Part shown: in pieces, positions 37,217-39,411 of the stretch
Layout: each line of letters begins with the position of its first letter
Position numbering within the stretch: the first letter of the stretch is position 1
Source of the DNA: Alphaproteobacteria bacterium
GTDB taxonomy: Bacteria > Pseudomonadota > Alphaproteobacteria > UBA6615
DNA: 39,420 nucleotides
NCBI GenBank assembly: GCA_027297685.1
Contig: JAPUHN010000137.1
Span: 1 to 39,420, forward strand
Reading direction: 5' to 3'
Position numbers and translations under genes: made by a program
The notes under the pieces: generated by a model
Database searches by the model: none
The model's input: only the letters and a program-made list of their open reading frames with translations
What the model was told of the DNA's origin: nothing

Positions 37217-38467
37217 GTGTACATGTTGGACTTAGCAATTGGACATTCGAAGCGTGTCGGCGTCAACCGCCGGCGCGCAGGCATATTGCCGCGTCTTGTC
37301 GCCGTCTCGACCCTATTTCTCGTTATGTTGTTGGCAAATCCGGCTCAGGCTGGGTACGCGGCGATCGTGATCGACGCCGATTCTGGTCGCATTCTTCACT
37401 CGCGCAACGCCAACACACCGAATTTCCCGGCGTCGCTGACCAAGATGATGACTTTGTTTATGACTTTCGAGGCCCTGGAAAGAGGCACACTGTCGCTCCA
37501 CCAGCATTTGCGCGTGTCCAAGCGCGCGGCCGGACAACCGGCCTCCAAGCTAGGCTTGAAAGAAGGCGAGACGATCACCGTCGACGACGCCATCCGCGCA
37601 ATGTCGGTTATATCGGCCAACGATGTGGCCACGGTAATTGCCGAGGCGCTTGGCGGTACCGAGGTCAAATTCGCACAAATGATGACCGAGCGGGCTCGTG
37701 CGCTGGGTATGACACGGACATCGTTTCGCAACGCATCGGGCCTGCCGAACCGCCGACAAAAGACGACGGCGCGAGATATGTCCATTCTCGCTAGAGCGTT
37801 GATCGATGGCTTGCCCGACTACTACGGCTATTTTTCAGTGCCGTCGTTCCAATACAAAGGCAAGAATTACCGCAGTCACAACTCCCTGCTAAAGGACTAC
37901 GCCGGCACCGACGGCATAAAAACCGGCTATATCCGCGCCTCGGGGTTCAATCTGGTCACTTCGGCTGAACGGGATGGCGTTCGGTTGATCGGTGTTGTCT
38001 TTGGCGGTAAGACCGCCAAACGCCGCGATCGGCAGATGCGACGCTTGCTTAACCGCTCGTGGGCGCAGGCGCGAGCCGCGTCGACGTTTGCGGCCAGGCC
38101 GATTCCGAAACCCGAGATACCCGGCACCGAGGCCGATGCGACCGCGTATATCAATGCTCCGATCCCGCCGACCGTGCTGCGCAGAACAGCGGCCGAATGG
38201 GGCATTCAGATTGGCGCGTTCGAAGGGTACACGGATGCGCATATCGCGGCCGGCAATGTTGCGCAGCACTTGTCCAATCTGCCGGTAACCGCATCGTTAA
38301 AAATTCAGCCGGTATCTCGGACACCCGGTACACTATTTCGGGCCCGGTTGATGGGGATGGATGAAATTTCTGCGCGTGCCTCGTGCCGGCAGCTCGTACG
38401 TAACGGTCAGGATTGCGTGCTGGTAACGCCGCAAGGCGATGAGTTGGCCAGCCTGCCCACCCGCTAA
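37217..38467 (+). CDS. D-alanyl-D-alanine carboxypeptidase with C-terminal SPOR domain
   Basis: 416 residues (GTG at 37217, or ATG at 37223). A signal peptide ends near NPAQA (residue 45). The penicillin-binding serine peptidase motifs follow: SLTK (Ser73, Lys76), SAN (133-135) and KTG (235-237). A linker leads to a SPOR domain from about residue 330 (EWGIQIGAFEGYTDAHIAAG), which binds denuded peptidoglycan at division sites. The enzyme trims the terminal D-Ala of peptidoglycan stem peptides in the periplasm. Low-molecular-weight PBPs with SPOR domains are common in alphaproteobacteria. Confidence 0.93.
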   Translation: MYMLDLAIGHSKRVGVNRRRAGILPRLVAVSTLFLVMLLANPAQAGYAAIVIDADSGRILHSRNANTPNFPASLTKMMTLFMTFEALERGTLSLHQHLRVSKRAAGQPASKLGLKEGETITVDDAIRAMSVISANDVATVIAEALGGTEVKFAQMMTERARALGMTRTSFRNASGLPNRRQKTTARDMSILARALIDGLPDYYGYFSVPSFQYKGKNYRSHNSLLKDYAGTDGIKTGYIRASGFNLVTSAERDGVRLIGVVFGGKTAKRRDRQMRRLLNRSWAQARAASTFAARPIPKPEIPGTEADATAYINAPIPPTVLRRTAAEWGIQIGAFEGYTDAHIAAGNVAQHLSNLPVTASLKIQPVSRTPGTLFRARLMGMDEISARASCRQLVRNGQDCVLVTPQGDELASLPTR

Positions 38468-38582: not shown

Positions 38583-39029
38583 ATGCCCGATATTTATTTC
38601 GAAGATCTCGCTGCTGGACAGGAATACGACCTTGGCAGCCGCACGCTCGACCGCGCCGCCATCGTCGATTTCGCCACAGAATTCGATCCGCAGCCGTTTC
38701 ATGTCGACGAGGAAGCGGCAGAACAGTCGATTTATGGCGGACTCATCGCCAGCGGTTGGCAGACCTGCGGCGTATATATGCGCTTGTTGTGCGACAGCTT
38801 TCTCCTGCAGGTGCACAGCATGGGGTCACCCGGTGTCGACGAACTACGGTGGCTCGGACCGGTCCGGCCTGGCGATACACTGTCGGCAAAACTGCGTATC
38901 GACGAGGTTCGCGTTTCCAAGAGTAAGCCCGACCGGGGCATTATCATGACCGCTGGTGAAGTACGTAACCAGGAAGGTGATCTGGTTTTGACCTTAAAGT
39001 CGCCGCTGATGGTGCGGCGGCGCCAATGA
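38583..39029 (+). CDS. MaoC family dehydratase
   Basis: 148 residues, a single hot-dog fold. Motifs: YFEDLAAGQEYDLGSRTLDRAAIVDFA, then DPQPFHVDEEAAEQSIYGGLIASGW, which carries the hydratase catalytic Asp and His of MaoC/R-hydratases. Such enzymes hydrate enoyl-CoA or dehydrate hydroxyacyl-CoA; some (PhaJ) feed polyhydroxyalkanoate synthesis, but nothing here proves that role. Start ATG is preceded by CGCAGGTC. It is transcribed towards the minus-strand micro-gene at the right edge. Confidence 0.9.
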   Translation: MPDIYFEDLAAGQEYDLGSRTLDRAAIVDFATEFDPQPFHVDEEAAEQSIYGGLIASGWQTCGVYMRLLCDSFLLQVHSMGSPGVDELRWLGPVRPGDTLSAKLRIDEVRVSKSKPDRGIIMTAGEVRNQEGDLVLTLKSPLMVRRRQ

Positions 39030-39094
39030 AACGCACCTTCAGATTTACGCGTTGCTCCCCCGCGCCCTTCGAGACGGAAATATACGTCTGATGG

Positions 39095-39128
39095 AAAAGC
39101 GCCGCCCCACGGTTGCGGAGCGGCGCTC
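39095..39128 (-). terminator. Intrinsic terminator of the right-edge micro-gene
   Basis: AGCGCCGC (39098-39105) pairs perfectly with GCGGCGCT (39120-39127). Read on the minus strand, the stem is followed by TTTTCC, a short U-run. It lies about 145 bp downstream of the 25-codon ORF on the same strand. It could also serve, less well, as the end of maoC transcription. Confidence 0.65.
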
Positions 39129-39270
39129 TAAGTACAAACGCTAGGTGATCGCCGGGTGGTTTTAACGTAAATCCTTGCCCGTGGCGTATAGCCTCAAACC
39201 GGCGATGCGAACGCATCGCCAGCAGGCATGCGAGATCACCCTCGCGGTAAATCTCTCGCGTTTAGGCAGC
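39129..39270 (-). other. Structured 3' untranslated region of the micro-gene
   Basis: No supported gene. It contains a near-perfect hairpin GGCGATGCG-AA-CGCATCGCC (39201-39220) and a smaller one GCGAG-ATCACC-CTCGC (39230-39245). Together with the micro-ORF and terminator it would form a transcript of roughly 290 nt, so it may be part of a small RNA. Confidence 0.45.
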
Positions 39271-39348
39271 TTACCAGGCGTTACCCATCGCCAGAGGATC
39301 ACCAGTGTCTCGCACGACGGCCTTCGCCGTCACCATTCCGTTAGACAT
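39271..39348 (-). CDS. 25-residue small protein of unknown family
   Basis: The minus-strand ATG at 39348 opens a 25-codon ORF ending in TAA at 39271. The peptide begins MSNGMVTAKAVV, continues RDTGDP and ends LAMGNAW. It has no membrane helix or signal peptide, no cysteine, and a C-terminal tryptophan. The support for translation is the ribosome-binding site: AAGGAGGTGATC, fully complementary to the 16S rRNA 3' tail, 7 bases from AGGAGG to the ATG, with a promoter-like pair further upstream and a terminator downstream. I do not recognise the peptide. It could be a regulatory leader, a stress small protein or a precursor of a modified peptide; the sequence alone does not decide. Confidence 0.6.
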   Translation of the reverse strand: MSNGMVTAKAVVRDTGDPLAMGNAW

Positions 39349-39350
39349 GG

Positions 39351-39362
39351 GATCACCTCCTT
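39351..39362 (-). promoter_or_regulatory. Extended Shine-Dalgarno sequence of the micro-gene
   Basis: Minus-strand AAGGAGGTGATC is the exact complement of the anti-Shine-Dalgarno tail GATCACCTCCTT. Most genes in this window have only 4-6 matching bases. Spacing to the ATG is ideal, so strong initiation is expected. Confidence 0.8.
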
Positions 39363-39383
39363 CCAGTTGTTGCTCGAATTTTT

Positions 39384-39411
39384 ACTGTAGACCAGCCCTA
39401 CGGAGTCTCAA
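39384..39411 (-). promoter_or_regulatory. Sigma70-like promoter of the micro-gene
   Basis: On the minus strand TTGAGA (39406-39411) and TACAGT (39384-39389) are separated by 16 bases; they match 5 of 6 and 4 of 6 consensus positions. Transcription would start near 39377, leaving a leader of about 28 bases that consists mainly of the Shine-Dalgarno region. Confidence 0.5.

Follow-up and report, generated by a model that had tools for sequence, protein, structure and literature searches.

An alphaproteobacterial micro-gene related to the Rfam CC2171 small RNAs carries a mini-ORF whose frame and length, but in general not its peptide, are conserved

RNAIII/hld of S. aureus is a dual-function RNA, and several alphaproteobacterial small RNAs (sRNAs), for example CcsR and alpha-r14/NfeR1, have CCUCC anti-Shine-Dalgarno (anti-SD) loops. 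In S. meliloti, rnTrpL/peTrpL is a dual-function RNA (PMC10117765), and S. aureus has small ORFs with an extended Shine-Dalgarno (SD) sequence (PMC13009471). Rfam family RF01867 (CC2171) is an alphaproteobacterial sRNA family labelled by type as a noncoding sRNA, from Caulobacter, and our search of the available literature found nothing on its function. The sRNAs predicted in Mesorhizobium huakuii include a CC2171 match, and in that bacterium RNA-seq products were obtained for 34 of the 35 predictions that are not riboswitches (PMC5596092).

The window analyzed here is a 39,420-nt stretch of DNA that ends with its contig. On its minus strand, at 39411-39094, lies a micro-gene with a promoter-like site, a 13-nt extended SD, a 25-codon ORF, a structured RNA, and a GC-rich hairpin; an earlier note on this DNA had described it as a self-contained micro-gene, and the picture of a stand-alone RNA with strong signals for its ORF is right, with all of the parts confirmed, including the structured 3' region and the short U-run after the hairpin. 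A DNA search identified two close copies, in genomes G007 and G013, with 79% and 76% identity across the whole element; other families of the class gave shorter matches, every one beginning at the SD. The features are as follows, G001 and G009 being further members of the window's lineage.

39384..39411, minus strand: sigma-70-like promoter TTGAGA-16-TACAGT (TTGAGA 39411-39406, spacer 16 nt, TACAGT 39389-39384), 9/12 matches, one site found against 0.3 expected; region conserved in G007 and G013
39343..39372, minus strand: 5' module CAACAACTGGAAGGAGGTGATCCCATGTCT, comprising a CAA leader, the extended SD, the start codon, and a Ser codon; class-wide, nearly always one per genome, with zero matches for reversed-pattern controls
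39350..39362, minus strand: extended SD AAGGAGGTGATCC, 13 nt, GGAGG core 7 nt 5' of the ATG; complement of the 16S rRNA 3' end
39271..39348, minus strand: ORF MSNGMVTAKAVVRDTGDPLAMGNAW and stop, 25 codons; frame kept in relatives, no Pfam family for the peptide
39316..39331, minus strand: predicted hairpin GACGGC-GAAG-GCCGTC within the ORF; counterpart in G001 is AUGGC/GCUAU, with a C-G to U-A double change
39228..39315, minus strand: predicted long arm in which ORF 39315-39305 pairs with 3' UTR 39240-39228; the prediction for G001 and G009 has this arm too
39199..39372, minus strand: match to Rfam RF01867 (CC2171), 27.6 bits, E 3.7e-4 in a search of 361 nt, short of the gathering score
39137..39150, minus strand: anti-SD motif GATCACCTAGCGTT, immediately 5' of the terminator; motif CACCTNRCGTT in seven related loci
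39094..39130, minus strand: GC-rich terminator-like hairpin, then UUUU; hairpin kept in relatives via compensatory changes

Within the window, AAGGAGGTGATC occurs without mismatch only at the micro-gene SD, and the next best sites have two mismatches. The 16S 3' end of this genome was not found in the assembly. The RNA folds far better than shuffled sequences (z of -5.6 and -5.5), and the inferred transcript is ~280 nt here and typically 175-200 nt elsewhere. The four-U run is too short for the hairpin at 39130-39094 to satisfy the terminator rule of the prediction program; a terminator-like hairpin and U-run lie downstream in 94 of 96 loci.

The genes beside the loci are not constant, and homologous loci are intergenic; judged by eye, the neighbors presumably include a luciferase-like monooxygenase, phosphoglucomutase, amidohydrolase, UvrB, YihY, MFS, and ThiC. 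Because the neighbors differ between loci, the micro-gene is not the leader of a fixed gene, and we rejected an attenuator or operon leader, the downstream genes being variable and often convergent. In this assembly nothing lies beyond 39420, where the earlier note had pointed, since the contig stops there; the relative G007 has upstream of its micro-gene what we take, by eye, to be a luciferase-like monooxygenase. Two ordinary genes are convergent with the micro-gene in the window, a D-Ala-D-Ala carboxypeptidase (Peptidase_S11; 37217-38467, plus strand) and a MaoC-like dehydratase (38583-39029, plus strand); a D-Ala-D-Ala carboxypeptidase adjoins the micro-gene in G007 too. On a Parvibaculum-type contig (L052), positions 1-339, 1.6 kb from the micro-gene, match the cspA thermoregulator RNA below threshold (RF01766, 45.5 bits, gathering 78).

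The earlier note knew of no family for the product, but the element does belong with one: by sequence, it is a divergent relative of RF01867. Rfam at the gathering threshold (75 bits for this family) returned zero matches in the window, rRNA included, and the identity surfaced only through an E-value search of the relatives. In that relaxed search L029 and L112 score 90.5 and 79.7 bits, both over the cut-off, with L096, L063, and L117 at 53.6, 51.1, and 49.9 bits; among the control genomes, Caulobacter vibrioides also exceeds the cut-off. The window scores 24.4 bits (E 0.0056) when its whole own genome is searched; in the 361-nt search its alignment begins at the first model position, at CAACAA, and has many mismatched pairs against the consensus secondary structure. 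We call it a divergent relative and not a curated member because the gathering cut-off is not reached and the linkage runs through the module and the intermediates. The CC2171 5' module, CAACAA..GAAAGGAGGUGAUCC..UGUCU, is present with one deviation, GGAAGG for GAAAGG, a position at which G007 and G013 read GAAAGG. The link rests largely on this 30-nt module, and the 5' module could be common to unrelated RNAs.

Shared with CC2171 are the CAA leader, GAAAGGAGGUGAUCC, the position of the start codon, and the UC that follows it, as well as the stand-alone transcript with a GC-rich terminator-like hairpin at its end. The window's element differs in its sub-gathering score, its length (~280 versus 159 nt), its 3' domain, and the anti-SD before the terminator; the family, for its part, has the type label of a noncoding sRNA. 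Like rnTrpL/peTrpL and RNAIII/hld, it is a small structured RNA bearing a short ORF, which is translated in those systems; unlike them, its peptide is generally unconserved, the RNA is not leaderless, and there is no attenuation of a constant downstream gene. As in the S. aureus extended-SD ORFs, the SD exceeds the usual core pairing, but in Alphaproteobacteria it marks a single specific locus, present essentially once per genome. CcsR and alpha-r14/NfeR1 are likewise small RNAs with a C/U-rich core that resembles an anti-SD; the micro-gene, in contrast, has anti-SD, extended SD, and start codon on one RNA and predicted to be able to pair.

The module common to the relatives is YAACAAYNGAAAGGAGGTGATCCnDTGTC, followed by unrelated short peptides; it always ends with ATG, GTG, or TTG and then TC, at fixed spacing. 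A looser pattern, AAAGGAGGTGATCNNDTGWS, searched with TGWS permitted after the SD, is present in 70 of 385 genomes of the class at 71 sites, all with TGTC, and the reversed control pattern had zero matches. Across a sample of the phylum, the module is present in 33 of 67 Alphaproteobacteria and in none of 182 other Pseudomonadota (both counts tallied by hand). Parvibaculum, Rhodospirillales, Kiloniellales, Hyphomicrobium, Sphingorhabdus, Azospirillum, and others have it in the collection scan. It is essentially single-copy per genome; the only sampled genome with two SD-start copies is G035 (C1:805113 and C1:2922049). RF01867 matches at E <= 0.1 occur in 82 of 289 genomes, an upper bound because weak matches can be antisense 16S, as on contig C10 of G001. 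Searches of phages and plasmids with the 30-nt module found no match, and a plasmid search for the Rhizobiales-type copy (L096) gave zero matches.

For the reading frame we used 54 clusters that share almost no 8-mers past the start. Within the 12 codons after Met-Ser, frame 0 is closed in none of the 54, whereas closures number 29 and 18 for the other two frames and average 19.4 in shuffles; the ORF never closes before codon 14. ATG, GTG, and TTG all serve as the start at the same place. The ORF has a median length of 26 codons (IQR 24-28), far tighter than in shuffles, and ends within an 8-codon band in 34 of 53 clusters, compared with 10.1 (maximum 22) in 500 shuffles conditioned on an open start. 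That the ORF is open in all 54 clusters, with its stop position constrained, shows selection on the frame and on its length of ~26 codons. The peptide behaves otherwise: substitutions at codon positions 1, 2, and 3 number 172, 156, and 157, pN/pS is 0.94 over 19 clusters, and the peptides are unalignable across orders, so that the encoded sequence is nearly free and the peptide in general not conserved. Non-synonymous drift, which the earlier note would have held against the gene, is indeed seen in most lineages, but the frame as such is kept.

We weighed whether the RNA is an efficient small mRNA made for its peptide, which would then be a functional micropeptide or a precursor of the RiPP type, and consider this unlikely. 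The extreme SD and the open frame of fixed length count in its favor, but the near-neutral pN/pS, the equally changed codon positions, and the failure to align across orders speak against it, as does the reading of GGAGCAACCTC in different frames. No maturation or export genes and no constant neighbors for a RiPP-type product are found at the loci. In the window's own lineage, the first 19 codons of the window, G007, and G013 are almost invariant at every codon position, the differences being two non-synonymous changes and a silent one at codon 19, and MSNGLV..AKA..R.TGDP is kept among these three, G001, and G009 with 5-7 synonymous changes. Weak peptide selection may act in this lineage because pN/pS drops to 0.34-0.80 between the trio and G001/G009. 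However, several of the silent changes relative to G001/G009 fall in the ORF hairpin with pairing preserved (C-G to U-A, G-C to G-U; by inspection), and we conclude, on the modelled fold, that RNA structure constrains the ORF here. In VSHCH-type peptides, TW[IV].AS recurs, which also favors a peptide, and the Azospirillum type does so further:

L077, ~6790 downwards, minus strand: Azospirillum-type locus, CC2171-like
L021, 1525-1695, plus strand: Azospirillum-type locus, CC2171-like

These loci have a 47-56-aa ORF, signal-peptide-like and then with a short tail containing a Cys that comes after the hydrophobic stretch; purifying selection apparently acts on it (pS 0.54, pN 0.22). It looks like a selected secreted peptide, an exception to the free peptide, and is possibly an exaptation of the mini-ORF. 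The type sits on Azospirillum chromids and is mostly unannotated. We also weighed S. meliloti SEP1 (23 aa) as a possible homolog.

Complementarity between the SD and downstream sequence is overall only marginally above shuffles (p=0.046), but RCCTC lies at +38 to +75 in 23 of 54 clusters, compared with 5.7 in shuffles (maximum 9), with no enrichment before or after this band, and GCARCCTC is present in 10 of 54 clusters against 0.1 in shuffles. The RCCTC enrichment near the ORF end occurs in all three frames, and GGAGCAACCTC encodes EQPL or SNL depending on the member; because it is translated differently across members, this anti-SD core is a motif of the RNA. The window's lineage has instead the anti-SD GATCACCT inside CACCTNRCGTT, just 5' of the terminator (seven loci), and the SD pairs with it in both minimum-energy and consensus folds, positions 39150-39143 being predicted to pair with a core probability of 0.9-1.0 in the window. 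The same closed multibranch shape is predicted for the window, G007, G013, G001, and G009, with SD core pairing of ~0.7-1.0; predicted SD pairing is weaker in L047 (~0.6) and L081 (<0.2). Covariation in the lineage is modest, with double changes at 12 of 115 pairs, several of these in loose stems, among three sequences. The anti-SD is predicted to close the RNA by sequestering the SD.

A purely noncoding, trans-acting sRNA, whose CCUC core or SD module pairs with other RNAs and whose ORF is incidental, would account for the frame-independent enrichment, for the curation of CC2171 as an sRNA, and for the M. huakuii match mentioned above. An incidental ORF, however, would not be free of early stops in all 54 clusters or keep to 24-28 codons, and the module always ends in a start codon and TC at fixed spacing; we consider this reading unlikely, as we do that of a peptide product.

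The reading towards which we lean, with fair but not high confidence, is that of a short ribosome-loading RNA of the CC2171 family with a self-sequestered SD, in which ribosome loading, and not the peptide, is the output or control step. We consider such a translation-gated RNA the simplest model because it explains the maximal SD, the fixed-length ORF of free sequence, and the internal anti-SD together. The transcript would begin with a CAA leader that lacks structure, followed by a ribosome-binding site of the greatest possible strength, continue through the ORF of ~26 codons, and end at the terminator. It would switch between a closed form, with the SD paired to its own anti-SD, and an open, ribosome-loaded form, which a 30S subunit that wins the SD would bring about; a ribosome translating the ORF would then melt the internal helices and hold the RNA open. 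Translation would in this way gate how stable or how available a regulatory RNA is, the predicted candidate outputs being its own decay, pairing with other mRNAs, or ribosome titration. With an ORF of ~26 codons, translation would end with the nascent chain still largely in the exit tunnel, as would suit a dummy ORF. That the RNA is translated, switches, and regulates anything is our inference.

The element is real and conserved, with a stronger case as an RNA and a weaker one as a peptide than the earlier note supposed; of the three options offered there, the selected open frame speaks for a dual-function small RNA, whereas the RiPP precursor or conserved small protein is unsupported. A 'noncoding' orphan Rfam family is thereby recast as a class-wide RNA that would be selected for its translatability and not its product, separating the act of translation from what is made; if this is right, Alphaproteobacteria would have in it a native and simple means to report or govern how many ribosomes are available. 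More speculatively, and with considerable doubt, this class-wide RNA with its sequence-free 'dummy' mini-ORF of fixed length might sense free 30S subunits via SD/anti-SD competition, such that ribosome supply sets its stability or regulatory activity.

An RNA with a dispensable ORF that acts as decoy or sink for the 16S 3' end, whether by sponging ribosomes or by taking part in the maturation of that end, would use the class-wide 13-15 nt of complementarity to the 16S tail, but this reading leaves the frame and length constraint and the conserved start spacing, CAA leader, and Ser codon, which are not complementary to 16S, without a role, and we think it very improbable. We examined antisense 16S first, because so long an SD might come from a 16S end read on the reverse strand, and rejected this artefact, or a chance match, as next to impossible: the motif does equal the complement of the 16S tail, but the window contains no rRNA, its flanks differ from those of the true antisense-16S end in family member G001 (L155; AGAAAGGAGGTGATCCAGCC), and the homologous loci are intergenic with varied neighbors. 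The RF01867 model does weakly match the antisense strand of 16S rRNA 3' ends (C10:2366-2533 of G001, L155), an annotation trap at relaxed thresholds.
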